Shown: positions 12,174 to 32,447 of the stretch, in pieces
How the letters are laid out: every line of letters begins with the position of its first letter
Numbering within the stretch: the first letter of the stretch is position 1
Assembly (NCBI GenBank): GCA_949293285.1
Contig: CASFCU010000031.1
Location: 1 to 33,652 of the forward strand
Source: an uncultured bacterium
GTDB lineage: Bacteria; Bacillota_I; Bacilli_A; RF39; UBA660
Reading direction: 5' to 3'
Length of the DNA: 33,652 bases
Notes under the pieces: generated by a model
The model's database searches: none
What the model was told of the DNA's origin: nothing
Seen by the model: the letters and a program-made list of their open reading frames with translations, nothing else
Program-made: the position numbers and the translations under genes

Positions 12174-12435
12174 TAATAAAAAACAGTTATATTATCCACA
12201 AAGGGACGAATAACTGAAAATCCGCGGTACCACCCAATTTATTATATATGTAAATAGAATTATATATATAATCACTCAATGAGATAACGGTTCATATCCG
12301 ACTTATTCTACTATTAAATATTAATTTCAAATAAGTAGCTCGTAGGTGTCGTTCATCTTCTATTCATGTTATTTTCCACCAAACAATAACTCTCTACAAA
12401 AAAATACAAAATTACTCTTCCTAGTCTTTGCCGAT
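12174..12435 (-). promoter_or_regulatory. T-box riboswitch leader of aspS (probable Asp specifier)
   Basis: On the minus strand the invariant T-box GGGTGGTACCGCG lies at about 12223-12235. Upstream are Stem I features: AGAGAG, then TTGTTTGGTGGAAAA (distal loop). The probable specifier codon is GAC at 12348-12350, in GAACGACACC, followed by A as usual. Downstream is the terminator hairpin CAGTTAT...ATAACTG (12184-12216) with six T. Uncharged tRNA-Asp should stabilise the antiterminator and allow aspS and the phosphodiesterase to be transcribed. An overlapping AAC could be read as Asn; GAC fits the alignment better. Confidence 0.9.
12177..12217 (-). terminator. T-box-controlled terminator hairpin
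   Basis: CAGTTAT (12210-12216 on the minus strand) pairs with ATAACTG (12184-12190), with partial inner pairing, then a T run to 12178. It directly follows the T-box sequence, as the switch requires. Confidence 0.75.
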
Positions 12436-12441
12436 ATAGAA

Positions 12442-18286: not shown

Positions 18287-18300
18287 ATAACGCCTCTTTC

Positions 18301-18316
18301 TGTTGACTTATCAACA
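18301..18316 (-). repeat. Inverted repeat in the htpG leader
   Basis: Perfect TGTTGA-N4-TCAACA lying between the predicted transcription start and the SD of htpG. It could be a repressor site or a small RNA hairpin. It does not match CIRCE (TTAGCACTC) or a CtsR heptad repeat. Confidence 0.55.
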
Positions 18317-18322
18317 AAATTT

Positions 18323-18351
18323 ATGTTATCACTTTTTTTGGCACTTGTCAA
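18323..18351 (-). promoter_or_regulatory. Promoter of htpG
   Basis: TTGACA (18346-18351), 17-bp spacer, TAACAT (18323-18328) on the minus strand, about 37 bp from the start codon. Confidence 0.75.
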
Positions 18352-18449
18352 TCTTGTTTGCTAATTTTATATAAAAGAAAGTTACCATCATCTTTTACAA
18401 GGTTTACATAATCTGATACGAATATTGTTAGAATTATCGACTGTCATGA

Positions 18450-18455
18450 TATAAT
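18450..18455 (+). promoter_or_regulatory. Extended -10 of the YwaF-like gene
   Basis: TGATATAAT (TATAAT at 18450-18455) on the plus strand, 48 bp before the start codon; a TTGTTA at 18425-18430 is 19 bp away and only a weak -35 candidate. Confidence 0.5.
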
Positions 18456-18502
18456 TGTTTCAAAATACTTATTCTAAAATTTAAAATAGAGGTGAAAACG
18501 CA

Positions 18503-19255
18503 ATGAGAGAATTTTTTCTAGATGAAGAAATAAAAATTCCTTTTATTCTTTTTGGGAAGACACATATTGGTTGTATCATCATTGGATTAACAGGATTATT
18601 ACTAATATATTTATTAAGAAATCAAATAAAAAAAATTGACAAAAAAAAACATCGATTGATTAAATACACAATGTTTATCATATTATTTGGCAATATGGCC
18701 ATATATTATGGCAGTTATCTTTATTATGGAGTCTACAATTGGAAAGTGCATTTGCCACTACATTTCTGTTTTATTGCCGGAATATTATTTATGATATATT
18801 TATTAACAGGAAAAAGAAAATTATATAAAATTATATTTCCTCTTACCTTTATAGGTCCTCTTCCTGCCATATTTTATCCAGAATTAACAAGTAGTTTTGA
18901 TCATTTCTTATTCTATCAGTACTTTATCAGTCATCACTTATTGATGATATTTAGTTATTTTATTCTCTACTTAGAAGATTTCACCATTACATTAAAAGAC
19001 ACAATAAAAACATTTATCACTGCTAATTTAATCTTTCTCATCATGTCTATTTTTAATATGATTTTCAAAACAAACTACATAATGTCAGGTGGATTACCAA
19101 ATTTTCTAACAGAACTCTACCCATTTCTTAATCACATCTTTCCACCTATCGTATTAGAGACAGTAGGAATTATAGTATTATTTTTAATATCTTTACTAAC
19201 ACATATTAAAAACAAAGAAGATAACTTACTAAAGAATAAAACAAAAAAAGACTAA
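18503..19255 (+). CDS. YwaF/TMEM164-type multi-span membrane protein
   Basis: 250 aa with about six or seven membrane helices. The pattern HLPLHFCFIAGI in a mid-protein helix, the GPLPAIFYPE loop and YQYFISHHLLMIFSYF match the YwaF family (TIGR02206), related to eukaryotic TMEM164. In TMEM164 the HxC centre is reported to be an acyltransferase site; here the His and Cys of LHFC are conserved, so an acyl- or lipid-transfer role is possible but inferred. Start ATG with AGAGGTG eight bases before. Its stop (TAA, 19253-19255) overlaps the stop of the convergent tspO gene by two bases, so no terminator fits between them. Confidence 0.82.
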   Translation: MREFFLDEEIKIPFILFGKTHIGCIIIGLTGLLLIYLLRNQIKKIDKKKHRLIKYTMFIILFGNMAIYYGSYLYYGVYNWKVHLPLHFCFIAGILFMIYLLTGKRKLYKIIFPLTFIGPLPAIFYPELTSSFDHFLFYQYFISHHLLMIFSYFILYLEDFTITLKDTIKTFITANLIFLIMSIFNMIFKTNYIMSGGLPNFLTELYPFLNHIFPPIVLETVGIIVLFLISLLTHIKNKEDNLLKNKTKKD

Positions 19256-19716
19256 TTCAATAAATAGATTTGAAAATTTAAATAGGCTGCAAAAACAAGC
19301 CATAATAAATAAGGAACCAATAAAGCAAAAGAAACCTTACTTCTCTTACAATACATATAGGACATAATTCCAACAAAAACAATTAACAATAAAATCCAAA
19401 AAAAGGAAAAAAAGAAAGCTTTTAATCCAAAGAAGATGAATGTCCAAAAAGAGTTTACTATCATTTGCACAATATAAATCATATAGTAGTTTATATTGTC
19501 TTTTTTTATATCATTAGTTACTAAATACAAAGAAATACTCATGAGTATATATAGAACAATCCAAGCAATAGGAAAAATAAACCCAGGTGGAGCTAAGGAA
19601 GGTTTTACAATTTCTTCATATATATCAGTTGACACAAAAAAACTAAAAAAACTACCTATTAAAATAGTGAAAACAATAATTACAAATATTTTTTTTAAAT
19701 TTATTTTATTTTTCAT
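19252..19716 (-). CDS. tspO: TspO/MBR family membrane protein
   Basis: 154 aa, five predicted helices, the standard TspO size. Motifs are KPSLAPPGFIFPIAWIVLYILM in the first loop and TM2, NSFWTFIFFGL in TM3 and PYLLWLVFAAYLNFQI in TM5, covering the Trp-rich porphyrin/sterol-binding cavity. TspO proteins bind tetrapyrroles and are linked to stress responses and porphyrin handling. Start: ATG at 19716, giving MKNKINLKK. The open frame continues 33 codons upstream but runs into the tRNA-Glu gene, so that part is not coding. The SD is poor. It may be transcribed from the tRNA promoter. Confidence 0.88.
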   Translation of the reverse strand: MKNKINLKKIFVIIVFTILIGSFFSFFVSTDIYEEIVKPSLAPPGFIFPIAWIVLYILMSISLYLVTNDIKKDNINYYMIYIVQMIVNSFWTFIFFGLKAFFFSFFWILLLIVFVGIMSYMYCKRSKVSFALLVPYLLWLVFAAYLNFQIYLLN

Positions 19717-19787
19717 ATTATATTCATATGTCAGAAAATCTTTTTTATTCCAAAAAAAATAGTCACAAAGACTACTTAAACACAAAA

Positions 19788-19864
19788 TGGTGACTCGTAT
19801 GGGGTTCGGACCCATGAATACTGCCTTGAGAGGGCAGCGTGTTAAACCACTTCACCAACGAGCC
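19788..19864 (-). tRNA. tRNA-Glu (anticodon CUC), CCA encoded
   Basis: Minus strand. Acceptor GGCTCGT pairs with ACGAGTC, discriminator A, encoded CCA (19788-19790). Anticodon arm CTGCC-CTCTCAA-GGCAG gives anticodon CUC (reads GAG). T arm ATGGG-TCCGAAC-CCCAT is complete. The D arm (GTG/CAC with AAGTGGTTTAA loop) is shaped as in Bacillus tRNA-Glu. It stands alone rather than in a tRNA cluster. Confidence 0.95.
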
Positions 19865-19974
19865 AATAATAATATCTCTTTCTCAAAAGATATTATCATT
19901 TTATCACTAATTGATTTTTTTTACAATAGCTCGACTGGATTTTGTAATTTTTTATATAAAAATATCAATAAATA

Positions 19975-20003
19975 AAAAAGAGGACTTAATTATGAATCAA
20001 GTC
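19975..20003 (-). terminator. Probable terminator after the class II aldolase-like gene
   Basis: Minus strand GAGACTT, loop, AAGTCCTC (one bulge), then six T. The 5' arm begins near the stop codon at 20004. Imperfect stem, hence moderate confidence. Confidence 0.6.
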
Positions 20004-21041
20004 TCATCTTTTTCTTACTAACTTTTTTGCATACTGATTTTCAGGTAATTTTCTACCTATCATATCAATATTCATTAATTGTTCTGGAGTCTTACTCATC
20101 ATAATACTTCCATGCCCTACTAAATTAATTAAATAAAAATCTTTTTTTAAATCGTTGTTATACTCTTTTTCCAATAATCCTAATATCTCTCCTACTTCTT
20201 CTACTGCTCCACATGGTAAAGACTTTTGTGTAAATGGAGCACCATCAATATAACAATGAGAATGTATCATATAATTTATATTAGGTAATAATTCATACAA
20301 TCTAACTTGGATTGGCGTATCAACAGATGGTTTACTATCTCCACAACAATATACTCTTCTATTTTCTAAATATACTGGATCAAATTCATCAATTCCAATA
20401 AATTCTTTATTAACATTTCTTTTACTTACAAAAATATATTTACCTTCTCTAAATGATGGAAAACCTTTAGGACATCTAAACGAAGCATTCCCTAAAAATC
20501 TCTTAACATCTTTTGTTTCAAATGTTGCTTCAGCAAATTTAGAAGCATATTCTTTTACAAGATTAAAAAATACTTTTTTAACAGGAATAGTTGGATTACT
20601 ATCAGATTTATACATTTCTTCTTTAAACATATTAAAAAACCAAGCCAAAGCACCAATACCTTCTTCTGAAGAAACGGTTGATTCTCTTGTTATGCTTTTT
20701 ATAAAATTTAATCTATCTATTAATTCTTTAGAACATTCTTTAATATTTGTTCCTTCATACCATGCGTTACCAAGTGGATCAAATAATTTCATACTATATA
20801 AATCATTATTTTTGCTAAACTCTATTGTTAAACTTGATTTTAATGCAAAAGATCTTTGAAGTAAATCTTGAAAAGAATGTTTATTATCTACATTTCTTTT
20901 TGAAGAAACAAGCATTGTTTTATAATTTATATCTTTAACATTTCTAATTTTAGGTAATTCATTTGGGACATTTGCCCACCAAATAACAACATCATAATTT
21001 TGTATTTGTTCATTTATCTTTCTTGTTGATAACCCTACCAT
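20004..21041 (-). CDS. Class II aldolase/adducin-domain protein with extra N-terminal domain
   Basis: 345 aa as read. Residues about 165-335 are a class II aldolase/adducin domain: FVSKRNVNKEFIG, the GDSKPSVDTPIQVRLYE stretch, zinc ligands in MIHSHCY (His260, His262) and NLVGHGSIM (His310). Family members cleave phosphorylated sugars or dehydrate/epimerise them. Residues 1-150 form a separate domain that I do not recognise (YDVVIWWANVPNELPKIRN; LVSSKRNVDNKHSF; LFDPLGNAWYEG). The start is doubtful: ATG at 21041 has no SD, and the +1 frame upstream (from 21101) encodes MSKLKNKRD... ending KIISLYG just where this frame begins, so the 5' end may be frameshifted. It follows the SufB-like gene by 93 bp with no clear promoter. 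Confidence 0.7.
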   Translation of the reverse strand: MVGLSTRKINEQIQNYDVVIWWANVPNELPKIRNVKDINYKTMLVSSKRNVDNKHSFQDLLQRSFALKSSLTIEFSKNNDLYSMKLFDPLGNAWYEGTNIKECSKELIDRLNFIKSITRESTVSSEEGIGALAWFFNMFKEEMYKSDSNPTIPVKKVFFNLVKEYASKFAEATFETKDVKRFLGNASFRCPKGFPSFREGKYIFVSKRNVNKEFIGIDEFDPVYLENRRVYCCGDSKPSVDTPIQVRLYELLPNINYMIHSHCYIDGAPFTQKSLPCGAVEEVGEILGLLEKEYNNDLKKDFYLINLVGHGSIMMSKTPEQLMNIDMIGRKLPENQYAKKLVRKR

Positions 21042-21134
21042 ATAATGAAATAATCTTTACTTCTGTACCTGATACATCTCTTTTGTTTTTTAGTTTCGAC
21101 ATTACTAACTTTTTTAATAAAAAAAGAAAAAAGT

Positions 21135-22052
21135 TTATTTTAAAAATCCATGAATAATCATATCTTCTGCTTCCTTTGCATTAAGACCTAATGACATTAA
21201 TTTAGTAAACTGATCCCCTGCAATCTTTCCTATCGTAGCTTCATGAACTAAATTAGCATCTACACTCTTAGCATAAATCTCAGGAACTGCCCTTACTTTT
21301 CCTTCATCTTTGATAATGGCATCACATTCCACATGACCATAACAAGAACCATGACCAATAATATTAGAATTAAACTCTTGATAAGAAAAATCTTCAGCAA
21401 CCGATCTAGAAGTAACATGAGTACTAGAATTTTCTCCCAATAAATCCACTAAAAAATCCGTCTTAGCATATTGTTCTCCTGTAGTAAGAATTTTCTCTGT
21501 AATAACTAAAGTAGCATTATCGTACAAAGTAGCCTTTGTTTTTCTTAAAGTATTATCTACTCCTTTTAACTGTACAGAATCCATTAACATATAAGAATTT
21601 TTCTTCATGGTAATCTCTGTTACCGGATTCAAAACTTTCTTACCACTTCCTAATCCCTCTCCATAATGTATTTCTATATATTTTACTTTAGAATTCTCCT
21701 CTAAAAAAAACCTATGAATTCCATCGTGTTCTGAGTGATCACAAGAATCATTATGAATGGCGCAACCAGCAATGATAGTTACATTAGCATTTTTACCGAT
21801 ATGAAAATCATTATAAACAACATCTTTCAGTCCACTTTCTGTAATAATAACAGGAATATTGATAATACCGAACAAAGTATCTTCTTTCACATATATATCA
21901 ATACCCGATCCATCTTCTTTCGAATCGATACTAATATAGGGATTTACTTTTCGTTCTACACATTTTCCATTTTTTCGAATATTATAAACATCTGCTTTTT
22001 TTACATCACTTGGCAACACTTCTTTTAACAAAGACTCATCGGTTTTATTCAT
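21135..22052 (-). CDS. sufB: SufB/SufD-like Fe-S scaffold protein (SMS-type)
   Basis: 305 aa. The C-terminal motif GKIAGDQFTKLMSLGLNAKEAEDMII and the beta-helix core (HVTSRSVAEDFSYQEFNSNI, GHGSCYGHVECDAI) identify a SufBD core domain. With SufC it assembles Fe-S clusters. It is much shorter than classical SufB (~465 aa) and SufD (~420 aa) and is the only SufBD gene here, matching the two-gene minimal SUF (SMS) form known from archaea and some anaerobic bacteria. The start, ATG at 22052, has AGGAGG eight bases before and overlaps the sufC stop by 8 bp, so translation is coupled. No cysteine desulfurase, SufU or SufE gene is in the window. Confidence 0.88.
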   Translation of the reverse strand: MNKTDESLLKEVLPSDVKKADVYNIRKNGKCVERKVNPYISIDSKEDGSGIDIYVKEDTLFGIINIPVIITESGLKDVVYNDFHIGKNANVTIIAGCAIHNDSCDHSEHDGIHRFFLEENSKVKYIEIHYGEGLGSGKKVLNPVTEITMKKNSYMLMDSVQLKGVDNTLRKTKATLYDNATLVITEKILTTGEQYAKTDFLVDLLGENSSTHVTSRSVAEDFSYQEFNSNIIGHGSCYGHVECDAIIKDEGKVRAVPEIYAKSVDANLVHEATIGKIAGDQFTKLMSLGLNAKEAEDMIIHGFLK

Positions 22053-22773
22053 CCATATCACCTCCTAAGCAGCATTTCTTTCCACTAAAAAATCCTGTCA
22101 TAAAATGATCTTTAGTATCCATTTTTGCAATTTTACCAGACTCCATCAAAATAATCATATCTGCTATATTCAAAATTCTCTCTTGATGAGAAATAACCAA
22201 AGTAGTCCCACTTAAGGAGCTACGAACATCTTTAAATACCCTAATTAAATTTTTAAAACTCCACAAATCTATCCCAGCTTCTGGCTCATCAAAAATAGCA
22301 AACTTCGGATTTTTAGCAATAATAGTAGCTATCTCTATTCTCTTTAATTCTCCACCTGATAAAGTTTTATTAATCTCTCTATCCACATACTCTAAAGCAC
22401 ATAATCCGACTTTAGATAATATATTACAAGCCTCTTCTTTAGTAATTTTCTTCCCTTTAGCAACATTTAATAAATCATATACAGTAATCCCTTTAAAACA
22501 AACAGGCTGTTGAAATGCAAAACCAAATCCTAATTCTGCTCTTTTATCTAGACTCATATCCGTAATATCCACCCCGTCAAATAAAATTCGACCAGAATCA
22601 GGTTTTTCTATTCCCATAATAATCTTAGCCAAAGTAGATTTTCCACTCCCATTAGGACCTGTAATAACATAAAACTTATCAGACTCTAAACACAAATTAA
22701 CATGGTCTAAAATTTTTTTATTTTCTCTAAAAAAACAAATATCCTTTAACTCTAACAATCTAATCATCCCCAT
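22045..22773 (-). CDS. sufC: SufC-like ABC ATPase of the Fe-S scaffold
   Basis: 242 aa. Walker A GPNGSGKSTLAKIIMG, a Q-loop in FAFQQPVCFKGI, signature LSGGELKRIEIATII and Walker B FAIFDEPEAGIDLWSF. The PEAGID in place of the more general ABC sequence and the ELKRIEI signature are typical of SufC. It drives conformational change of SufB for cluster assembly in the cytosol. Start: ATG 22773 or ATG 22767 (MIRLLELKD); neither has a good SD. The open frame extends to 22839 but that includes the promoter. First gene of the sufC-sufB pair, behind a TTGTTT-17-TATAAT promoter carrying a partial Fur-type box. Confidence 0.9.
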   Translation of the reverse strand: MGMIRLLELKDICFFRENKKILDHVNLCLESDKFYVITGPNGSGKSTLAKIIMGIEKPDSGRILFDGVDITDMSLDKRAELGFGFAFQQPVCFKGITVYDLLNVAKGKKITKEEACNILSKVGLCALEYVDREINKTLSGGELKRIEIATIIAKNPKFAIFDEPEAGIDLWSFKNLIRVFKDVRSSLSGTTLVISHQERILNIADMIILMESGKIAKMDTKDHFMTGFFSGKKCCLGGDMDE

Positions 22774-22798
22774 TGCAAAACAGTTAATTTCTATAAAA

Positions 22799-22813
22799 CC
22801 GTAATCATTATCA
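22799..22813 (-). promoter_or_regulatory. Candidate Fur/PerR-type operator at the sufCB start site
   Basis: Minus strand TGATAATGATTACGG matches the 7-1-7 Fur-family box TGATAATNATTATCA at 12 of 15 positions, with the last three bases deviating. It overlaps the predicted transcription start, a position suited to repression under iron sufficiency. Half the palindrome is degenerate, so this is a candidate only. Confidence 0.45.
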
Positions 22814-22818
22814 AAACA

Positions 22819-22847
22819 ATTATAATGTATCAAAAGCAAAAAAACAA
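22819..22847 (-). promoter_or_regulatory. Promoter of sufCB
   Basis: TTGTTT (22842-22847), 17-bp spacer, TATAAT (22819-22824) on the minus strand. The -35 sits right behind the nrtR stop codon (22849), so sufCB is separable from the NAD genes. Confidence 0.65.
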
Positions 22848-22848
22848 A

Positions 22849-23667
22849 TCATTTTGTTTTATACCGGAATAAATACGATGGTCTATGACCACCACCAGTC
22901 CTCATTTTATCAGTTTTTTCTACTTTATTAGATATAATCCTTCTAAATGCTGGGTCTAAAAGCTTTTTCCCCAGTATCACTTCATATACCCTTTGTAACT
23001 CACCTAAAGTAAAATACTCTGGCATCATATTAAATACAATATCCGTATACGCTATTTTATTTTTTAATCTTTCTATTCCACTGACAATAACCAAAGGATG
23101 ATCAAAAGCAATACGATCATTTTCTAAAACCTTAAACTGATATCTATCCGTAGTCTTCTCCTTCAAACTTTTCCCTACTTTAAATTTTATAGTATCTATC
23201 CCATTATCAAGTGTAACTAATATTTCTTTATCATCTTCCAAAAGAGAAATATGAAACCAAGAAGCATTACTAGAAATCTTTGAATCTAACTTATTCTTAT
23301 CAATCAAAGCCATATAAGAAACAGATACAATACGCATTCTAGGATCTCTTTTCGGATTACCAAACGTATAAAGTTGCTCCAAATAAATATCCGATATATT
23401 TGCTTCATCTTTTAAAATTCTTTTAGCCGCATCTTCGATATCCTCATCAATAGCAACAAAACCTCCAGGTAAACACCAAGTATCTTTAAATGGATAATTC
23501 TCTCTTTTAACCAATAACACACTAAAATGCTTCTTATTAAGTTTTCTATAATTATCACTAACTTCATCTGATACACTAAATATCAAAATATCCGCAGTCA
23601 AAGAAAGCCTCTCAAACTGACTAGGATCATATGCTTTTAAAAACTCTTCTTCACTATGAAATTTCAT
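22849..23667 (-). CDS. nrtR: NrtR-type Nudix-related transcriptional regulator of NAD metabolism
   Basis: 272 aa. Residues about 25-165 are a Nudix fold (DTWCLPGGFVAIDED...). The remainder fits the NrtR winged-helix DNA-binding domain: FTLGELQRVYEVILGKKLL, FRRIISNKVEKTD, and a basic GGHRPSYLFRYK tail. In NrtR the Nudix pocket senses ADP-ribose or another NAD-derived ligand. The Nudix box is degenerate: instead of R-E-x-x-E-E it reads RILKDE, losing catalytic Glu, as expected for a sensor rather than a hydrolase. SD AAGGAGTGATAAG; the stop of the decayed gene upstream overlaps this SD. The NAD salvage genes lie directly upstream and carry palindromes that are plausible targets. A catalytic Nudix enzyme is the less likely alternative. 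Confidence 0.88.
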   Translation of the reverse strand: MKFHSEEEFLKAYDPSQFERLSLTADILIFSVSDEVSDNYRKLNKKHFSVLLVKRENYPFKDTWCLPGGFVAIDEDIEDAAKRILKDEANISDIYLEQLYTFGNPKRDPRMRIVSVSYMALIDKNKLDSKISSNASWFHISLLEDDKEILVTLDNGIDTIKFKVGKSLKEKTTDRYQFKVLENDRIAFDHPLVIVSGIERLKNKIAYTDIVFNMMPEYFTLGELQRVYEVILGKKLLDPAFRRIISNKVEKTDKMRTGGGHRPSYLFRYKTK

Positions 23668-23671
23668 CTTA

Positions 23672-24300
23672 TCACTCCTTCTTTATAACCAATACATAAG
23701 TACTATCAGGTAATGAAACCACATTCATATCACTATCGTAAATAGCTTTTTAGAAAGTAAATGAAGTAAATACCAAAGCCGTACTATAAATAATATTACT
23801 ACCAGGAAGATTTCTCTTAACAAGCTCTTCTTATCTGCTAGGAGTAAAGTAATCAAATTGCTCTTCTACCTCATGTGGATAAAGAGACTTTTAATGCCTT
23901 TTTTAATCACAACCTAATTAAATTTCATACTGTGATATTCTATATAAGAAAATAATGCATGAATAACCAAAAATAAATAATAGTACTATCTATTTGTCTT
24001 TTTTTTAATACTTCTCTAAAGTCAAAAGTTTTCCCTTCACAAAATAATAACATATCTCTTCTATCACCCGTTTTCGAAACATCACTCCAAAGAAGAACCT
24101 CTTTAACTAAATAAATCAATTATCATCAGTAAGATCTTTTGAATCAAGTATTTCTAAATTTCTAATAATATACTTCAAAACAAAAGTACTCCAATGTTTT
24201 CATAGATTTTAAAGAAGCTGAATGATAATTTTTTTCTTTCGTATCCAAAAGATGCTTAACAGGATAAACACTTTTGTCCTTGTTTTAAACTTGCTCTAAA
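23672..24300 (-). pseudogene. Decayed gene between pncC and nrtR
   Basis: No long ORF exists in this 630-bp stretch, but the minus strand still has an extended -10 (TGCTATAAT, 24322-24330) and TAAGGAG (24301-24307) with no start codon in place. Coding-like fragments in shifting frames follow: YPVKHLLDTKEKNYHSASL, EVLLWSDVSKTGDRRD (about 24075-24120), YPHEVEEQFDYFTPSR (23834-23881), ending DSTYVLVIKKE and TGA at 23672-23674. Stops interrupt the last frame at 23831-23833 and 23750-23752. The original protein (about 200 aa) is not recognised. Its location suggests it belonged to the NAD-linked operon; several lesions make simple sequencing error unlikely. Confidence 0.75.
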
Positions 24301-24321
24301 CTCCTTAACATATATAACTAA

Positions 24322-24330
24322 ATTATAGCA
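24322..24330 (-). promoter_or_regulatory. Extended -10 before the decayed gene and nrtR
   Basis: TGCTATAAT on the minus strand. It may still transcribe nrtR through the pseudogene. Confidence 0.5.
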
Positions 24331-24351
24331 TATATTGAAAAAAAAGCTTAT

Positions 24352-24816
24352 TTAAATAACAGAAATAAGACTCTTTATAATCTCTTCAACAATATATTTT
24401 TTATTTTCTAGTCTATTATCTTTAATAGAGGTAAAACTACTATCATAATATTGATCAGTATCCTTATCATAGATACTTACATAAACCTTATCATCACTAC
24501 CGAAAGGATTATGAATATCAGCTCGATTAAACTTTCCTGTTACTCCAATACCATAATTAGAATTTGCAAACAAAGCAATATTTTTAGCCATAGAACGTGC
24601 TACTTCTATACTGTAAACAGAATACGTATCAATTAATGCTTTGTCTACTCCCATTTTTATTTTATATTCATTAGAATAAGTAACAGCTGAAAATCTTAAA
24701 ACTTCACTAGCAGAAGGAATATCCGTAATACAACTAGCTACATAACCTCCTGTACATGACTCCATCGTACTAATAGTTTTATTCTTTGCCTTTAAAGCTT
24801 CTACTATTCTTTTCAT
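24352..24816 (-). CDS. pncC: Nicotinamide-nucleotide amidase (PncC, CinA C-terminal domain)
   Basis: 154 aa, a stand-alone CinA C-terminal domain. The signature TMESCTGGYVASCITDIPSAS contains the catalytic Ser region, followed by SNEYKIKMGV and YGIGVTGKFN. PncC converts NMN to nicotinate mononucleotide plus ammonia, feeding the same intermediate that PncB makes, which fits the neighbours exactly. GNPFG-type nucleotide contacts appear as ADIHNPFGSDDKVYVSI. SD AAGGAGG, 5 nt from ATG. It has its own predicted promoter (24862-24891), 98 bp after nadD. Confidence 0.88.
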   Translation of the reverse strand: MKRIVEALKAKNKTISTMESCTGGYVASCITDIPSASEVLRFSAVTYSNEYKIKMGVDKALIDTYSVYSIEVARSMAKNIALFANSNYGIGVTGKFNRADIHNPFGSDDKVYVSIYDKDTDQYYDSSFTSIKDNRLENKKYIVEEIIKSLISVI

Positions 24817-24861
24817 AAGAACCTCCTTAGATTAACTAATAAAAAAACTTCCCTATTTCTT

Positions 24862-24891
24862 ATTGTATCGTATTTAACCAATCCATGACAA
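24862..24891 (-). promoter_or_regulatory. Promoter of pncC
   Basis: TTGTCA (24886-24891), 18-bp spacer, TACAAT (24862-24867) on the minus strand. Confidence 0.55.
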
Positions 24892-24914
24892 CTTTCTTTT
24901 GAAAGAAAAACTTA

Positions 24915-25496
24915 TCAAATATACAACTTATTTTTTTTAATATAATCTAAAACATCAGCAGTAACATAATTAGAAACACTATCTTGAGAAGACTTAAGTA
25001 ATCCTCTAACAAAAGTAGAAGATACCTTAGCAAAAAGATAAGGAATAAGAATAATATTTTCTTGATAACCTTTCAACTCTTCTAAGATAGAATCTAAATT
25101 CTCTTTATCTCTTTTTATAACTAAAATCTTATACTTAGTTAAAATTTCTTCAAAATTTTTCCACTTAGTAATTTCCTTTAAATTATCACTTCCACAAATA
25201 AAATATATTTCATCACAAACATATTTTTTTTGAAAATAATCTAGAGTCTGATAAGTATAAACTAAATAATCTTGAATTTCATAAGAAGAAACCTCCAGAT
25301 TTATACAATCTTTTACCATTAAAGATAACATATGAAAACGATCCTTTGCATCAACTAATTCTTTCTTTTTATATCTATTACCTGTTGGTACAAAAATTAC
25401 TTTATCTAAATATCCATATTTTACCAAACTTGTTGCAATTTTCTTATGAACTTTATGAGGAGGATTAAAAGACCCTCCGAAAATTCCAATTCTCAT
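24915..25496 (-). CDS. nadD: Nicotinate-nucleotide adenylyltransferase
   Basis: 193 aa. It joins NaMN and ATP to nicotinate adenine dinucleotide. The nucleotidyltransferase signature GIFGGSFNPPHKVHKKIA (T/HxGH-type) starts the protein; FVPTGNRYKK, YFICGSDNLKEITKW and the C-terminal KVSSTFVRGLL (ISSTxIR motif) complete the NadD pattern. Start ATG at 25496 with GAGGG five bases before; an upstream GTG (25508) overlaps the nadE stop and the SD. It follows nadE with an 8-bp gap and so should be co-transcribed and coupled. Confidence 0.94.
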   Translation of the reverse strand: MRIGIFGGSFNPPHKVHKKIATSLVKYGYLDKVIFVPTGNRYKKKELVDAKDRFHMLSLMVKDCINLEVSSYEIQDYLVYTYQTLDYFQKKYVCDEIYFICGSDNLKEITKWKNFEEILTKYKILVIKRDKENLDSILEELKGYQENIILIPYLFAKVSSTFVRGLLKSSQDSVSNYVTADVLDYIKKNKLYI

Positions 25497-25504
25497 AATA
25501 ACCC

Positions 25505-27433
25505 TCACTCTAAATTTTCAAGTTCTTCTATAAAACTTTCATAATCAGCATCACTAGGGAATCTTAAATCTCCTCTAGGAGAAAGACTAACACTTCCTAC
25601 CTTGATACCGTCAGGTACACAATTTCTTTTAAATTGAGAAGTAAAAAATCTCTTAATAAATACGATTAACCATTTTTTAATCTCCGAAGAAGAAAAATTA
25701 GAAGAAAAGGTATTTTTAGCTAAAAAGTAAATTTTTTTAGGACTAGCACCATATCTCAAAAAATGATATAAAAAGAAATCATGCAACATATAAGGACCAA
25801 TATTAGACTCTGTTTTTTGAAGAATTTTTCCCTTTTTATCTAAAGGTAATAACTCTGGAGAGATAGGAGTATCTAAAATATCATAGATAATCTTTTTTTT
25901 GTTAGAACTACTATGATCTGCTACAAAACGCACTAAATATTTTACCAAAGTTTTAGGAATACTAGAATTAACAGAATACATGCTCATATGATCCCCATTA
26001 TACGTACACCACCCTAAAGCAAGTTCTGATAAATCTCCAGTACCAATCACAATACCATTTTCTTTATTAGCAATATCCATAAGAATTTGCATCCTCTCTC
26101 TTGCTTGAATATTTTCAAAAGTTACACTTCGATTTTGACTTTTTAATCCAATATCTTTCATATGAAGTAAACAGGCTTTTTTAATATCCACTTCTAAAAA
26201 AGAAGCACCATACTCTTTAATAAGAAGACAAGCATTCGCATAGGTTCTATTACTAGTACCAAATCCTGGCATTGTAACAGCAATAACATTTTTCATATCC
26301 AACTGAAGCTTCTCATATGCCTTTTCTATTACCAAAAAAGCAAGTGTAGAATCAAGACCTCCGGATATTCCAATCACACACTTTGGAAAATGTAACTGAA
26401 TTAATCTTCTTGCCAAAGCAGAAGCCTGAATATTGAGAATCTCTCTACATCTTTCATCCTTTTTGTCAACATCGATAGGAACAAAAGGATATGGGCTATA
26501 AGTCCTTTCTAATTGTTGCCCCTTATCTTTTATATCAATAGAGATAACACGATACAAAGAAGAAACACGAAAATTCATGTAACTAGTATTTTTAGCTCTA
26601 TCATGAGTTAATCTTTTAACATCAACATCAGCATATATTAAAGTACTATCCAACAAAAATCTTTCATTAGAAGAAAGACAAGTACCATTCTCAAAAATAA
26701 GACAACTCCCTCCAAATAAAAGATCACTAGAAGACTCCATCATACCACTAGAAGCATAAACATAAGCACAAATAGCTTTTCCAGACTGCATAGAAACTAA
26801 CTTTCTACGATATTCATCCTTTCCTACGATCTCATTACTACTAGATAAATTAAAAATAATAGTAGCACCATGCAAACAGTGATAATTGCTAGGAGGATTT
26901 ACAGCCCATAAATCTTCACAAATTTCTAAAGAAAAGCTAATCTCTTTAAACCTTTTGTCAACAAATAATAAATTCGTATCAATTGCTACATGAAACCCTA
27001 GAAAAGAAATTTCTTTATTTATCAAATCTTCACTAGAAGAAAACCATCTTTGCTCATAAAATTCAGCATAATTTGGAATATACGTTTTAGGAACCATTCC
27101 CAAAATTTTTCCTTTCTGAATAACAATTGCCACATTGAACAATTGATTATCATGCCGAATGGGAGCACCAACAATAAAAATAATATCCATATTTTTACTA
27201 TTTTCAAGTAGATAACGAATAGCAGACTCCACACAAGATAAAAGATTATCATGAAAGAATAAATCTCCACAAGTATAACCTGTAAGAGACAACTCTGGAG
27301 TAGTAACAATATCAATACCACAAGAATCTGCCTTCTGAACCATTTTTAATATCTCATGAGCATTACGTATAGGACTTGCAAGAAATAACTGATTACTAAT
27401 AGCACCCACTCTAACAAAACCAAATTGTTTCAT
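25505..27433 (-). CDS. nadE: Glutamine-dependent NAD synthetase
   Basis: 642 aa. An N-terminal nitrilase-type glutaminase domain (about 1-270) has catalytic residues visible in TPELSLTGYTCGDLF (Glu), the MVPKTYIPNY Lys loop and FSLEICEDLW (Cys). The C-terminal synthetase has the ATP pyrophosphatase loop GISGGLDSTLAFLV, and DLSELALGWCTY. It amidates deamido-NAD to NAD using glutamine-derived ammonia channelled between domains, the last step of both salvage and de novo routes. ATG 27433 with AGAGGAT; five bases follow the pncB stop. Core gene of the pncA-pncB-nadE-nadD operon. Confidence 0.96.
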   Translation of the reverse strand: MKQFGFVRVGAISNQLFLASPIRNAHEILKMVQKADSCGIDIVTTPELSLTGYTCGDLFFHDNLLSCVESAIRYLLENSKNMDIIFIVGAPIRHDNQLFNVAIVIQKGKILGMVPKTYIPNYAEFYEQRWFSSSEDLINKEISFLGFHVAIDTNLLFVDKRFKEISFSLEICEDLWAVNPPSNYHCLHGATIIFNLSSSNEIVGKDEYRRKLVSMQSGKAICAYVYASSGMMESSSDLLFGGSCLIFENGTCLSSNERFLLDSTLIYADVDVKRLTHDRAKNTSYMNFRVSSLYRVISIDIKDKGQQLERTYSPYPFVPIDVDKKDERCREILNIQASALARRLIQLHFPKCVIGISGGLDSTLAFLVIEKAYEKLQLDMKNVIAVTMPGFGTSNRTYANACLLIKEYGASFLEVDIKKACLLHMKDIGLKSQNRSVTFENIQARERMQILMDIANKENGIVIGTGDLSELALGWCTYNGDHMSMYSVNSSIPKTLVKYLVRFVADHSSSNKKKIIYDILDTPISPELLPLDKKGKILQKTESNIGPYMLHDFFLYHFLRYGASPKKIYFLAKNTFSSNFSSSEIKKWLIVFIKRFFTSQFKRNCVPDGIKVGSVSLSPRGDLRFPSDADYESFIEELENLE

Positions 27434-27438
27434 ACTAA

Positions 27439-28911
27439 TCAATCCTCTTTTCTTTTCATAGTTTTAACAAGTTTTTTAGAAGAAACAAGATCTTGATGTT
27501 GATGAATTAAGGCTTGCTTCAAACTTCGTAATTTCTCACTTAAATCCACATAATATTCACTTGGTTTCATAATTCTAGTAACTTCTTCATAAAACGTATT
27601 CACTTCATTATCACAATACGTTTTTTTATCATCCAAACCTGGATCACAATAAACCAAAACTCCATTTTTAAAAATAGGAACCTGTAATTCTCTTACTCTA
27701 TAATGATTAAGCAACCTACTCTTCCAAGTCTCACTTTCATGAACTAAGGTATAAGATTCTTTGGAAATTTCTTCTTCTGCAAGGCAGATAACATCCCCTA
27801 ATGCATAACCTGTATCATTATCATAAAAACGATATACCTTCTTATACCCTGGATTAATCGTCTTAATACTATCATTACTAACTTTAATTCTAGGTTCGAC
27901 TTTTCCCTCTTTTTCTATAGCAACTAGTTTATACACTCCACCTACTCTCTCTTTAGAAGCAGCAATATTATCACCAACTCCCAAAGAATCTATCTTTGCT
28001 CCTTGCATCAACAACTCACGAATGGTAAACTCATTAATACCATTAGAAAGACAAATACCAGTATCCGTATATCCGCTTCTATCCAACATTTTTCTTGCCT
28101 CTTTAGATAGATAAGCCAAATCTCCACTATCAATACGGATACCTTTAAATGAATATCCATTAGGTTTCAAGTATTCATCTGCTACTTTAATTGCATTAGG
28201 AAGACCACTTCTTAAAGTATCATAAGTATCCACTAAAAATACACAATTATTAGGATTACTCTTAGCATACCCTAGAAAGGCATCATATTCACTTTCTGCC
28301 TCTGTAACTAAAGAATGTGCCATTGTTCCAAGAGCAGGTATTTTATATTTTTTAGCCGCATAAGTATTAGAAGTTCCAACACAACCACCAATATAAGCAT
28401 CCTTACTAGCTTCTATTGCAGAATCTATTCCTCTAGCACGTCGTGCTCCAAACTCCATAACAGGAATATTACCAGCTTCTCTTGTAATTCTTTTAGCTGC
28501 TGTAATTACTAAACTTCCATGATTAAAATTAGTAAGCAAAGCCGTTTCTAATAATTGTGCAGTAATTAAATCAGCTTTTACTGTGAGTACTGGTTCATTA
28601 GGAAATACCACTGTTCCATCTTCTACCGCATATACATCTCCCTTAAATTTTAAATTTTCAAGATGACTTAAAAAATTCTCACTAAAACAACCTAACTCTC
28701 TAAGATATTCTATATCTTCTTTCTCGAATTTAAAATTTTGAATATACTCAATAATTTCACTTAATCCCCCACTTATCGTATAGCCACCATCAAAAGGATT
28801 TTTCCTAAAAAACAAATCAAAATACGCAATTTCTTTGGCTTTTCCTTCATTAAAATATGTCTGAGCCATAGTTAACTCATAAAAATCTGTCATTAAAGTT
28901 TTATTTTCCAT
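27439..28911 (-). CDS. pncB: Nicotinate phosphoribosyltransferase
   Basis: 490 aa. It makes nicotinate mononucleotide from nicotinate and PRPP, with ATP hydrolysis coupled through a phospho-His. Motifs: MTDFYELTMAQTYF at the N-terminus, MEFGARRARG, GGCVGTSNTYAAK, GTMAHSLV (the phosphorylated His) and RIDSGDLAYLSKEARKM. Length matches the Bacillota ~490-aa subtype with a C-terminal extension. Start ATG at 28911 with AGAGGTGGTAAT; the 14 extra upstream codons of the open frame are the duplicated operator/SD leader. It lies 48 bp after pncA and 5 bp before nadE. Confidence 0.96.
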   Translation of the reverse strand: MENKTLMTDFYELTMAQTYFNEGKAKEIAYFDLFFRKNPFDGGYTISGGLSEIIEYIQNFKFEKEDIEYLRELGCFSENFLSHLENLKFKGDVYAVEDGTVVFPNEPVLTVKADLITAQLLETALLTNFNHGSLVITAAKRITREAGNIPVMEFGARRARGIDSAIEASKDAYIGGCVGTSNTYAAKKYKIPALGTMAHSLVTEAESEYDAFLGYAKSNPNNCVFLVDTYDTLRSGLPNAIKVADEYLKPNGYSFKGIRIDSGDLAYLSKEARKMLDRSGYTDTGICLSNGINEFTIRELLMQGAKIDSLGVGDNIAASKERVGGVYKLVAIEKEGKVEPRIKVSNDSIKTINPGYKKVYRFYDNDTGYALGDVICLAEEEISKESYTLVHESETWKSRLLNHYRVRELQVPIFKNGVLVYCDPGLDDKKTYCDNEVNTFYEEVTRIMKPSEYYVDLSEKLRSLKQALIHQHQDLVSSKKLVKTMKRKED

Positions 28912-28922
28912 ATTACCACCTC

Positions 28923-28943
28923 TTATTAACGTTTTATTAATAA
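28923..28943 (-). promoter_or_regulatory. Candidate NrtR operator, copy 3, in the pncB leader
   Basis: Plus strand TTATTAAC-GTTTT-ATTAATAA: the same 21-bp imperfect palindrome as at pncA (20 of 21 identical to copy 1), just before the pncB SD. There is no convincing -35 here, so it would act as an internal operator or roadblock. Confidence 0.6.
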
Positions 28944-28958
28944 CAAAATTCAAAAAAA

Positions 28959-29558
28959 TTATTTCTTTTTAATTAGTTTAATACCTTGCTGTTCCATAAG
29001 CAATTTTGCAGCCTCACTGTATTTACCACGTCCATGAAAAACAGAATCATACGTTTCCACTGCATCTGTATGAACATAAATATCTACTCTTTTGTTTCTC
29101 TCATCAAAATAATTCGATAATCCAAGCGTACCATTTGCCACACAAATATCAGTACAACATCCTATAACATCTACTCTTTTCAACCCAGTCATCTCCGCAA
29201 TAAGACTTCTAAACTGAGAAGACTCCATAAAACTAGTAGAATTTTTTTCAATAAAAACGACATTATCATAATCTTCAAACTCTCTAAATTCCTCTACTAA
29301 CTCTGCTTCACGACTTCCTCTTATACAATGTTGTGTATTTCCAAATCTTTGAAACTCTACCGAATTTTCAGTATGACTGTCCTTAATAAAAACAAGAAGA
29401 TCCCCATTATATAAAGAACTTCTTACAATTTCTAGCTGTCTAGGAATCACATCAGCAATTTTCTTATCATGTAGAACTCCTTCCCTAACGAATCCATTAA
29501 CCATATCGATAACAATCAAACAGTTATTATACACTTGCAAATTTTTAATTTTTTTCAT
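28959..29558 (-). CDS. pncA: Nicotinamidase (isochorismatase-family)
   Basis: 199 aa. It hydrolyses nicotinamide to nicotinate and ammonia, the entry step of the salvage route. Catalytic triad residues are visible: Asp in LIVIDMVNGFV, Lys in LVFIKDSHTENS and Cys in DVIGCCTDICVANG; the last motif also carries the cis-peptide V-I-G-C region of the family. The usual metal-binding His cluster is weak (HTENS only), so metal dependence is unclear. ATG at 29558 with AGAGGTGATGGC; the open frame's upstream part is the promoter/operator. First gene of the operon, behind a TTGACA-17-TAAAAT promoter. Confidence 0.9.
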   Translation of the reverse strand: MKKIKNLQVYNNCLIVIDMVNGFVREGVLHDKKIADVIPRQLEIVRSSLYNGDLLVFIKDSHTENSVEFQRFGNTQHCIRGSREAELVEEFREFEDYDNVVFIEKNSTSFMESSQFRSLIAEMTGLKRVDVIGCCTDICVANGTLGLSNYFDERNKRVDIYVHTDAVETYDSVFHGRGKYSEAAKLLMEQQGIKLIKKK

Positions 29559-29569
29559 GCCATCACCTC

Positions 29570-29590
29570 TTATTAACATTTTATTAATAA
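29570..29590 (-). promoter_or_regulatory. Candidate NrtR operator, copy 1, over the pncA -10
   Basis: Plus strand TTATTAAC-ATTTT-ATTAATAA, an imperfect 21-bp palindrome that contains the whole -10 element (TAAAAT, 29578-29583), the classic position for a repressor site. A near-identical copy lies before pncB and another upstream. Confidence 0.7.
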
Positions 29591-29606
29591 CAAACATTTT
29601 TGTCAA
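29578..29606 (-). promoter_or_regulatory. Promoter of the NAD salvage operon
   Basis: TTGACA (29601-29606), 17-bp spacer, TAAAAT (29578-29583) on the minus strand, flanked and overlapped by the two palindromes. Confidence 0.85.
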
Positions 29607-29610
29607 CTAC

Positions 29611-29631
29611 TTTTTAACATTTTGTTAAAAA
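29611..29631 (-). promoter_or_regulatory. Candidate NrtR operator, copy 2, upstream of the -35
   Basis: Plus strand TTTTTAAC-ATTTT-GTTAAAAA, an 8-bp perfect inverted repeat around 5 bp. It matches copy 1 at 18 of 21 positions, and the centres are 41 bp apart (about four helical turns), which would put two bound repressors on the same face. Confidence 0.65.
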
Positions 29632-29637
29632 CATAGC

Positions 29638-29670
29638 AAAAAAATAATATAATGCCAACAACATTATATT
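29638..29670 (-). terminator. Terminator of the surface-protein locus
   Basis: Minus strand AATATAATG, 7-nt loop, CATTATATT (perfect 9-bp stem), then A and seven T; 26 bp after the stop of the exported protein gene at 29696. Confidence 0.85.
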
Positions 29671-29695
29671 ACTTTACATCAAAATCACAATGATA

Positions 29696-31366
29696 CTAAA
29701 AAGAAAGAACAATTCGAAAGGAGGTATTCGCACTTGCAGAGCCATTTTTACCTTCAAATCTAAACACCCCAGTCCCAGCTATTGCACTTGAAGCCACTTG
29801 TTTCTCTCCCCCACGGGAAAACCATGAATATCTTAAATGAACGAAACTGGCGTAATCTGAATACCAAGAACTAGAAGTATCAAAAGGTCCTAACTCTCCT
29901 GTAGCATCCCCTAATATTCTACCAATTTTGCTAACTGGTTGGGCAACGTTATAATAATAACCATCGTAATACTTACTATCAATTCCATTTGCAACGGAGG
30001 TAACCTCATCAAAAGAACCTCCCATAACATACTCATTAGCTCCTCCTGACATATCATATATTCCAGTGATATTACCTGTAGTACTTGCTAAATATCCTAT
30101 CTCCGTATTCCACATTTCTGAATACGATGCATACCCTGTTCCAAAATTTAAATTACCATTCATTCTTATCTCACCGTTGATTCCATACATTGAATGAGAT
30201 AAATAAGCTACTGCCCCCCATTCTGTATTCTTCATCATATGAGAATCTAAACCTCTTTGATAATGATAACTTACCGTAAAAGCATTAGCTACTTGGATAT
30301 TTCTCCAACTATATACATTGGGTTTAATAATCACTTTACTAGACTCAGTAGTATCTTGTCGAGCGTCTCTTTCATTAGTTGCCCCATCATAACCTGTTTC
30401 AAACTTTCCCACCCAAATTCCATTGGTATTAAAAGCCAAGAAAGCTGGATGGGTCATATAGTCTCCCACTCTACAACTTCCAACTTCTCCTGATACTCCC
30501 GGAGTTGTACATTCTCCTTCAACGCTGTCCGTTGTATTTTGAGGTCCAAACCTAATATCTATAGCATGAACTTTACTATCATCTACTGCAGTATCATAAA
30601 TATAATTTCCTAAATCCCATAATTTATAACTATACTTTGGAATCCACACAAAATAACTTTGAATATTATCTTCGGGTATAACATCACCTTTTTCATACTC
30701 GACACTCTCATCTTTTAAGATGATTGCATTTGCCCATATTTTCTCTTCATAACGATACCATGCTGTCGAAGTATCAGCTTTTTTTACCGTTCCATCATTT
30801 TCTATCGTTACCGCCAATAAATTATTTTTTATGATAGGATCGGTTCCATTCAATATTTTTTCTTTATAAACAAACGAAAAATTCAAATAACAATTCAATG
30901 TATTATTTTCTAAAATCTCATCGGAATAAAACGTAATAGAAAACGTAACACTACTCTTCCCTTCTAACTCATCTCCAATTTCCAACCCCTCCAACGAAAA
31001 CTTTATCGATTCATTATCATAAAATGCTTCATCATACGTTACTCCATCAAAATCATACGTATCATTCGTACTATTATAAATAGTAACCTCATAACTAATA
31101 GAAGATTTCTCTACCACACTAGATAAAACTACCTTACTATTTAACATCGTTTGATAAAAATTCACTACTTTCGAATTTACTACATCTGCATTCTGATTAG
31201 TATCATAAACTACATCCGTAATAAAAATACCTTCCTGTACATTTGCTAATACTTTCCCCTCGATACCACTATACACCGAACTAATCCTTGCATAACCAAC
31301 TCCCATCAATAAACTAGAAACAAAAACTACCAAAGATAATAATCTAATCTTACTTTGACTACTCAT
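29696..31366 (-). CDS. Exported surface protein with SipW-type signal and C-type-lectin/FGE-like C-terminus
   Basis: 556 aa. The N-terminus (IRLLSLVVFVSSLLMGVGYA followed by RISSVYSGIEGKV) is the TasA/camelysin-like signal processed by SipW-type peptidases. Residues about 30-180 look like a beta-sandwich (YEVTIYNSTNDTYDFDG). From about 235 onward, FVWIPKYSYKLW, HPAFLAFNTNGIWVGKFETGYD, NTEWGAVAYLSHSMYG, GIYDMSGGANEYVMGGS, WFSRGG and the end SFRIVLSF give the formylglycine-enzyme-like C-type-lectin fold found in bacterial surface and diversified proteins. Enzyme activity is not implied. The start, ATG at 31366 with AGGAG, overlaps the DUF5305 stop by 8 bp, so it is translationally coupled. Likely the substrate of the adjacent signal peptidase; function as adhesin or fibre component is inference. 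Confidence 0.8.
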   Translation of the reverse strand: MSSQSKIRLLSLVVFVSSLLMGVGYARISSVYSGIEGKVLANVQEGIFITDVVYDTNQNADVVNSKVVNFYQTMLNSKVVLSSVVEKSSISYEVTIYNSTNDTYDFDGVTYDEAFYDNESIKFSLEGLEIGDELEGKSSVTFSITFYSDEILENNTLNCYLNFSFVYKEKILNGTDPIIKNNLLAVTIENDGTVKKADTSTAWYRYEEKIWANAIILKDESVEYEKGDVIPEDNIQSYFVWIPKYSYKLWDLGNYIYDTAVDDSKVHAIDIRFGPQNTTDSVEGECTTPGVSGEVGSCRVGDYMTHPAFLAFNTNGIWVGKFETGYDGATNERDARQDTTESSKVIIKPNVYSWRNIQVANAFTVSYHYQRGLDSHMMKNTEWGAVAYLSHSMYGINGEIRMNGNLNFGTGYASYSEMWNTEIGYLASTTGNITGIYDMSGGANEYVMGGSFDEVTSVANGIDSKYYDGYYYNVAQPVSKIGRILGDATGELGPFDTSSSWYSDYASFVHLRYSWFSRGGEKQVASSAIAGTGVFRFEGKNGSASANTSFRIVLSF

Positions 31367-32447
31367 ACTTCTCCTCTTCTTGTACACTATCTTTCACTTT
31401 TAAACAATAAGTATACAATATCTTACTACTAGGTATCACAAAATAAGTTCTTGTTTTCTCCTTATTTTCCACCATTAAAATAGGTGACTGAATCGTATCT
31501 CTAATTTCCAACATATCATGAAACGTATCTATTTTCAAAACTTGATATCCTTCTAATTCTAATTCATTATTTACTTTCTGAATATAAGAACCATAATTAT
31601 TCAATATCTTTCTTAACTTTCTTGCATAAACTCCCTCTTTCGTTTTAGTCTCTATTACATAACGACCAAATCGAATCATCATATATATATCCAATATCAA
31701 TAGCACAATAAACAAAATAAGTATCCAATAATGATAAGAAGAAAAACTATCATATCTCAAAACATTCTCATCATTTGCCACTAAATTCGAACTAATATCG
31801 ATAGCCATCGTTTTACTTGTCAATGGAATCACCAAAGATACCACCGACTTCTCTTCCTCTTCTTCCTCCACACTCCCACTAGTTCTCACAATCAAATCAA
31901 TCGTTAATGTACTATCCACCCCATCCAAATCATAAGTACTAATAAACTTCTTAATTAAATTATTATAAGCATGATAATCTATTTCAACTTCTTCTTCTAT
32001 CGTAAACTTTGGCTGTTGTTTTAAAGAATAAGTCTTCTCTTCTAACATCACTTCTTCTACTTCATATAACGTATTCCCTGTAACCTTATCTTTCACATTT
32101 ACGATAGAGACTATCTCATAAGAATACTGATAATCTATTCTTTCTCCCTCTAACATAAACTCATAATAAAAATCTGCCGTAATATAATCTATTAAACTAG
32201 CAATATATTGCTGATCTCTTTCTAAATATTCTTCTTCAAAAAATTCATTACTTTTTAAATATACCTCGTAATCTACCTTCCCTCTTTCTTCATAACTAAC
32301 ATACTGTTTCCTACTTTTATTTACAAATACCACCAAAAAAGACAACGCAATCACGCTCAATACGATAATCAAACAAATATAACTACAAATTCCTCTTCTT
32401 CTTTTCGTCTGTTCTACCAATATCTCATTCACTCTATCTTTTCTCAT
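31359..32447 (-). CDS. DUF5305-like membrane protein
   Basis: 362 aa. A signal-anchor helix (about 20-43, after a basic RRR stretch), a ~200-residue extracytoplasmic domain, a second helix (about 240-260, HYWILILFIVLLILDIYMMI) and a cytosolic tail of ~100 aa. The outer domain pattern (VDYEVYLKSNEFFEEEYL, YIASLIDYITADFYYEF, YSYEIVSIVNV, later DLIVRTSG) fits DUF5305, a family found beside archaeal and bacterial signal peptidase I genes. It contains an EEEEEE run near 198. Its start follows GGAGGGGAG at a rather long distance, 21 bp after the peptidase stop. Probably a partner of the peptidase in secretion or assembly of the exported protein; function unknown. Confidence 0.72.
   Translation of the reverse strand: MRKDRVNEILVEQTKRRRGICSYICLIIVLSVIALSFLVVFVNKSRKQYVSYEERGKVDYEVYLKSNEFFEEEYLERDQQYIASLIDYITADFYYEFMLEGERIDYQYSYEIVSIVNVKDKVTGNTLYEVEEVMLEEKTYSLKQQPKFTIEEEVEIDYHAYNNLIKKFISTYDLDGVDSTLTIDLIVRTSGSVEEEEEEKSVVSLVIPLTSKTMAIDISSNLVANDENVLRYDSFSSYHYWILILFIVLLILDIYMMIRFGRYVIETKTKEGVYARKLRKILNNYGSYIQKVNNELELEGYQVLKIDTFHDMLEIRDTIQSPILMVENKEKTRTYFVIPSSKILYTYCLKVKDSVQEEEKYE

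Follow-up and report, generated by a model that had tools for sequence, protein, structure and literature searches.

The NAD-salvage operon in the window, as we call the whole 33,652-nucleotide stretch analyzed, carries 21-bp palindromes around its promoter that are very probably operators of the NrtR protein encoded in the same cluster, which would block the promoter and be released by ADP-ribose. Observed directly were the position of the palindromes, their conservation, their co-occurrence with nrtR, and a change of the operator that goes along with the recognition helix of NrtR; by analogy with studied members of the family, we infer binding, repression, and the ADP-ribose signal for this NrtR. 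A block relieved by ADP-ribose is proposed because of the NrtR proteins that have been tested (PMC6800001, PMC12735969) and because three ADP-ribose-contacting residues are conserved.

Table 1. Promoter elements, palindromes, and genes of the NAD-salvage cluster (positions in the window)
Feature	Position	Strand	Remarks
O1	29611..29631	-	21-bp palindrome, end 4 bp upstream of -35; proximal A-rich arm in UP-element position
-35 TTGACA	29601..29606	-	same distance kept in relatives
O2	29570..29590	-	21-bp operator-like palindrome overlapping -10; downstream end abuts pncA Shine-Dalgarno
-10 TAAAAT	29578..29583	-	17-bp spacer; TATAAT or TAAAAT in relatives
pncA Shine-Dalgarno AGAGGTG	29564..29570		
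pncA-like nicotinamidase, isochorismatase fold	28959..29558	-	first gene of operon; PF00857 8e-17
Third copy	28923..28943	-	exact match, immediately upstream of pncB Shine-Dalgarno
pncB, nicotinate phosphoribosyltransferase	27439..28911	-	NF006695 1e-184
nadE, NAD synthase (long form)	25505..27433	-	NF002730 3e-255
nadD, nicotinate-nucleotide adenylyltransferase	24915..25496	-	TIGR00482 4e-45
pncC-like NMN deamidase, CinA C-terminal domain	24352..24816	-	PF02464 1e-26; TIGR00199
nrtR, proposed repressor	22849..23667	-	PF21906 NrtR_WHD 5e-18, PF00293 2e-12

The pattern TTWTTAAC-N5-RTTAAWAA is matched exactly at O2 (TTATTAACATTTTATTAATAA), over the -10, and at O1 (TTTTTAACATTTTGTTAAAAA), upstream of the -35 (Table 1). 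A preliminary description had reported these two palindromes as framing the promoter, and their coordinates, their identity at 18 of 21 positions, and the centre-to-centre distance of 41 bp were all confirmed, as was the overlap with the -10, which falls in the middle of O2. O1 does lie just upstream of the -35, but the gap is 4 bp and not 5 bp as had been claimed, and although the two palindromes are real, a third exact copy (TTATTAACGTTTTATTAATAA) in the gap between pncA and pncB had been missed. This copy is identical to O2 at 20 of 21 positions, and the approximately 30 bp around it, comprising the palindrome and the Shine-Dalgarno sequence, repeat the pncA leader with one difference. The promoter itself (TTGACA-17 bp-TAAAAT, 11 of 12 matches) is the best sigma-70-like site in the region 18000-31400, and an Rfam search at this location found no known RNA element. 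Across the entire 1.217-Mb genome the exact pattern occurs at three places only, all in the NAD operon, and the reversed pattern, used as a control, does not occur. When up to three mismatches were allowed, 30 matches were found in the window compared to 32.6 expected from shuffles; because this search gave no excess, the main claims below are confined to sites that are exact or have one mismatch.

The genes are arranged in the order pncA, pncB, nadE, nadD, pncC, a gap with a decayed methyltransferase-like gene, nrtR, sufC, and sufB, which places nrtR about 6 kb downstream of the palindromes within the same cluster, where it is the only regulator-like gene recognized. The encoded protein combines a Nudix-like domain with a C-terminal winged helix, and both domain matches are above their cut-offs; its best NCBIfam match has an E value of 1e-48 over two stretches, but the score of 166 bits does not reach the curated cut-off of 400. 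The Nudix signature (GFVAIDEDIEDAAKRILKDEANI) contains RILKDEANI in place of REUXEEXGU, and judged from these residues the catalytic signature of the domain is impaired. A predicted model of the protein matches the SoNrtR-DNA structure 3gz6 (E 7e-14), AraR (5bs6, 2e-18), and the Enterococcus structure 2fml. Its recognition helix (residues 238-245) starts with DPAFRR (238-243), a sequence that is invariant or nearly so among typical members. Residues Y13, R55, and R110 are invariant in 25 orthologs and align with the ADP-ribose contacts Tyr10, Arg41, and Arg98 of SoNrtR; the position aligned with SoNrtR Asn43 is variable among orthologs.

We then turn to conservation. In a set of 59 relatives, the genomes with an uninterrupted NrtR of at least 60% identity have a palindrome upstream of pncA, and in all but one, this palindrome and nrtR are on the same contig. 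Among 80 loci picked solely for encoding this NrtR and not by the motif, a set of uncultured Bacilli (including Candidatus Caccenecus, Coprovivens, and Scybalousia) that overlaps partly with the genomes searched earlier, 74 exact sites were found, compared with 1.5 in shuffles and 1 for the reversed pattern. A site was present within 1 kb upstream of 36 of the 37 usable pncA genes in these loci (0.007 expected per kb). The preliminary description had named absence of the palindromes upstream of NAD genes in nrtR-carrying relatives as evidence that would speak against its reading; the 36 pncA genes show that they are conserved there. In 386 genomes of the family, the exact motif was present in 89 of 119 genomes with nrtR and in 46 of 267 without it (odds ratio 14, p ~1e-27), and the nrtR-positive genomes that lack an exact copy mostly have copies with one mismatch at the same place and spacing. 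Some matches in other genomes are intragenic or far from NAD genes (e.g. L138, L143, L144, L172, L177, and L178) and were treated as background. Two loci of the same genus that share the order nrtR-sufC-sufB (L068 in G008 and L069 in G009) have an interrupted nrtR with no detectable pncA nearby, and G008 retains a pncB remnant; the NAD-salvage unit is in the process of being lost in these genomes.

The arrangement of operator and promoter is also shared. Relatives keep the composite of an O2-type palindrome and a -10 in some 120 distinct promoters, and at 64 of the 69 places that were compared, a -35 accompanies the -10 palindrome at a 17-bp spacer. Some of the O2 conservation is that of the promoter, given the A+T-rich composition of the motif and its overlap with promoter elements. 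A palindrome downstream of O2 (O3) with at most one mismatch is most often located at +53 to +56 (34 cases). When up to two mismatches were allowed, 45 of 121 distinct family promoters had the upstream site and 88 had the downstream site. Neither the hairpin at the start site nor the downstream site, both known from many relatives, is present in the window, and O2 directly abuts the Shine-Dalgarno sequence; the leader looks like the product of a deletion that removed what lay between two operator repeats. The hairpin, of at least 6 bp at the predicted transcript start after the -10 palindrome, was found in 48 of the 121 promoters versus 8 in shuffles (examples are L148, L152, L154, and L066) and may protect the end of the mRNA.

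Within the NrtR reading, we see an even chance that the two promoter operators act independently, O1 by blocking the UP element and -35 and O2 by blocking the -10; this is a variant of that reading and not an alternative to it. In every one of the 23 compared promoters with both O1 and O2 at no more than one mismatch, the window's included, the two are spaced by 41 or 42 bp; such a distance is near four helical turns and would also suit contact between dimers. Yet each palindrome is anchored to its own promoter element, O1 to the -35 and O2 to the -10, which accounts for the 41 bp, so that cooperativity between O1 and O2 is not established. In three genomes of the same genus (G003, G004, and G011) there is no -10 palindrome, and O1 still keeps its 4-5 bp to the -35, with the next palindrome 68-69 bp away. 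Independent action also fits the optional nature of O1, which is missing in most family promoters, and the looser spacing of 43-59 bp between O2 and O3. Thus, of the earlier proposal of cooperative repression by NrtR via a lineage-specific operator, NrtR and the lineage-specific operator are well supported, whereas the word cooperative goes beyond these data.

Since nrtR and pncB have been gained and lost together within the family, their co-occurrence with the palindromes is not enough to tell an NrtR site from a site for some other protein linked to pncAB, and this tight linkage is what favors a different repressor associated with the NAD operon as the binder. No clean control carrying pncB and lacking nrtR was found inside the family or order (all matches listed for the sample of the order came from one family). 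In 11 genomes from other families of Bacilli that have pncB and lack nrtR, zero sites with up to one mismatch were detected within about 1.5 kb on either side of pncB. The operator is conserved upstream of NAD genes, co-occurs with nrtR, and is absent outside the nrtR-carrying lineage, in agreement with its initial description as lineage-specific.

Natural variants of the recognition helix bear on the same question. In G115 and G392 the helix reads DAPFRR (DPAF to DAPF), and the clearest palindromes have ATC/GAT arms (TTTTTATC-N5-GATAATAA). The helix of G026 is KANFQR, and its palindrome (ATATTATC-N5-GATATTAA) likewise has ATC/GAT arms instead of AAC/GTT. In G042 and G053, members of another family with the helix KANFRR, the AAC version is absent altogether and their own operator is less clear. 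The altered helix residues align with base-contacting positions of the AraR-DNA complex, in which the contacts K179, R180, N181, and K184 align with D238, P239, A240, and R243 of the protein described here (PMC4666351). As read from these alignments, the operator arms change along with the NrtR recognition helix (AAC to ATC) in a few lineages, namely a genus with two species, another single genome, and a different family in which the operator is less clear. Together with the control outside the family, this change singles out NrtR from other pncAB-linked binders, and the comparative data thus side with the original assignment of NrtR as the binder. The length of the operator also fits the footprint of NrtR and AraR, no other regulator-like gene is recognized in the cluster, and NiaR is absent, making a different repressor improbable. 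The pairing of natural helix variants with changed operators makes NrtR specificity testable. A divergent NrtR-like clade (L216-L222, L224, and L226; helix INSAFRRV in most) adjoins Nudix hydrolase, adenine phosphoribosyltransferase-like, or DHH-like genes and not NAD genes.

Two known regulators were considered as binders. NiaR (YrxA) of Bacillus and Clostridium is likewise a repressor of genes for NAD synthesis and salvage in Firmicutes and is a 3H-domain protein unrelated to NrtR. The genome under study has no match to its domain (PF02829), and the sampled family has one weak match below the cut-off (G021); NiaR was rejected given its absence from the genome and from the sampled family above the curated cut-off. 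Rex was rejected on sequence order alone, as the arms of its operator (TTGTGA...TCACAA) are opposite in order to those of the palindromes here.

In the mechanism we propose, an apo-NrtR dimer would occupy each 21-bp palindrome. NrtR on O2 would cover the start site together with the -10, and NrtR on O1 would cover the sequence directly preceding the -35; RNA polymerase would be shut out, and pncA-pncB-nadE-nadD-pncC would be repressed when NAD is plentiful. Turnover of NAD would raise ADP-ribose, and binding of this ligand in the Nudix-like domain would release NrtR and turn NAD salvage on. The third copy, before pncB, would probably be either a site within the operon at which elongating polymerase is slowed, or a spare operator.

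The position of this third copy is part of a recurring pattern. Palindromes close to the Shine-Dalgarno sequence in the pncA-pncB gap were found in 13 of 91 loci at up to one mismatch (0.14 expected from shuffles) and in 20 of 91 at up to two (about 1.8 expected), and the copy in the window fits this pattern. Their recurrence just before ribosome-binding sites is the less expected feature of the NrtR operator set and raises the question of NrtR control of genes inside the operon. The pre-pncB palindromes, of which the window, L150, L184, L210, and L258 provide examples, often lie just past a T-run behind the pncA stop codon. We tentatively entertain a multi-site NrtR array, with one operator upstream of the -35, another on the -10, a third just ahead of the first ribosome-binding site, and, in part of the genomes, more before internal genes, in which downstream copies may serve as roadblocks that give different outputs within one operon and helix/operator pairs may form a readable specificity code. 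In many genomes copies immediately precede ribosome-binding sites, which would also suit action at the mRNA level (on translation, for instance) by the copies near Shine-Dalgarno sequences (28923-28943 in the window, O3 in relatives) rather than a role as DNA operators. This is very unlikely: the stems would consist almost only of A-U pairs and be weak, the same sequence also serves ahead of the start site, outside the transcript, and the arms keep to the operator consensus, with G115 and G392 showing its ATC version. It is scarcely credible that the repeats are mere A+T-rich promoter sequence, or chance sequence, to which no protein binds. In favor of this, the three-mismatch pattern is as common as in shuffles and O2 contains the -10, but exact copies are about 50 times commoner than in shuffles in NrtR loci, and O1 and the pncA-pncB copies are conserved though they lie outside the -10 and -35.

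Further sites in relatives are located before prs (PRPP synthetase), before a short nadE, and, in one genome, upstream of nrtR itself. One nrtR-positive genome (G223) has a site (L132, 3373-3393) upstream of a PTS_EIIC_2 membrane protein, which may be a transporter under NrtR control. The uncultured gut Bacilli of this large family thereby receive an operator and a small regulon (pncA, pncB, nadE, nadD, pncC, and prs); a literature search on NAD regulation in this order returned nothing relevant, and the papers searched named no regulator of vitamin B3 use for the family.

The system resembles the NrtR regulons of Shewanella, Synechocystis, Streptococcus, and Mycobacterium, in which a repressor with Nudix and winged-helix domains is encoded beside NAD genes and palindromic operators lie over the promoter (PMC4666351, PMC6800001, PMC12735969). 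ADP-ribose is the antirepressor in several tested cases (PMC4666351, PMC6800001, PMC12735969). NrtR operator motifs are highly variable between lineages (PMC4666351), and a match to a published consensus is therefore not a defining feature of an NrtR operator. The operator of the window and family, TTWTTAAC-N5-GTTAAWAA, differs from the consensus of both Mycobacterium (GTTTTCGA-N7-TCGAAAAC) and Streptococcus (ATA-N-TTTA-N3-TAAAA-N2-ATA) (PMC6800001), and in contrast to the known regulons, a promoter here can have an array of as many as three sites, and copies also lie before internal ribosome-binding sites. Bacteroides AraR, a member of the NrtR family, shares the 21-bp site and a recognition helix in the same place, and its tandem sites upstream of an operon are 3 or 42 nt apart; it differs in controlling arabinose genes with L-arabinose as ligand (PMC4666351). 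Assignment to a known type of system, NrtR with lineage-specific operators, is well supported by these sequence comparisons; the operator departs from the Mycobacterium and Streptococcus consensus, and the number and placement of the sites are unusual.

Two other features of the window were observed. The stretch 23668-24351 is a methyltransferase-like gene in decay that is intact (about 650 amino acids) in L186 and L190. A T-box leader (12199-12437, minus strand) lies upstream of a 437-amino acid open reading frame (10837-12150) that reads like an Asn/Asp-tRNA synthetase.
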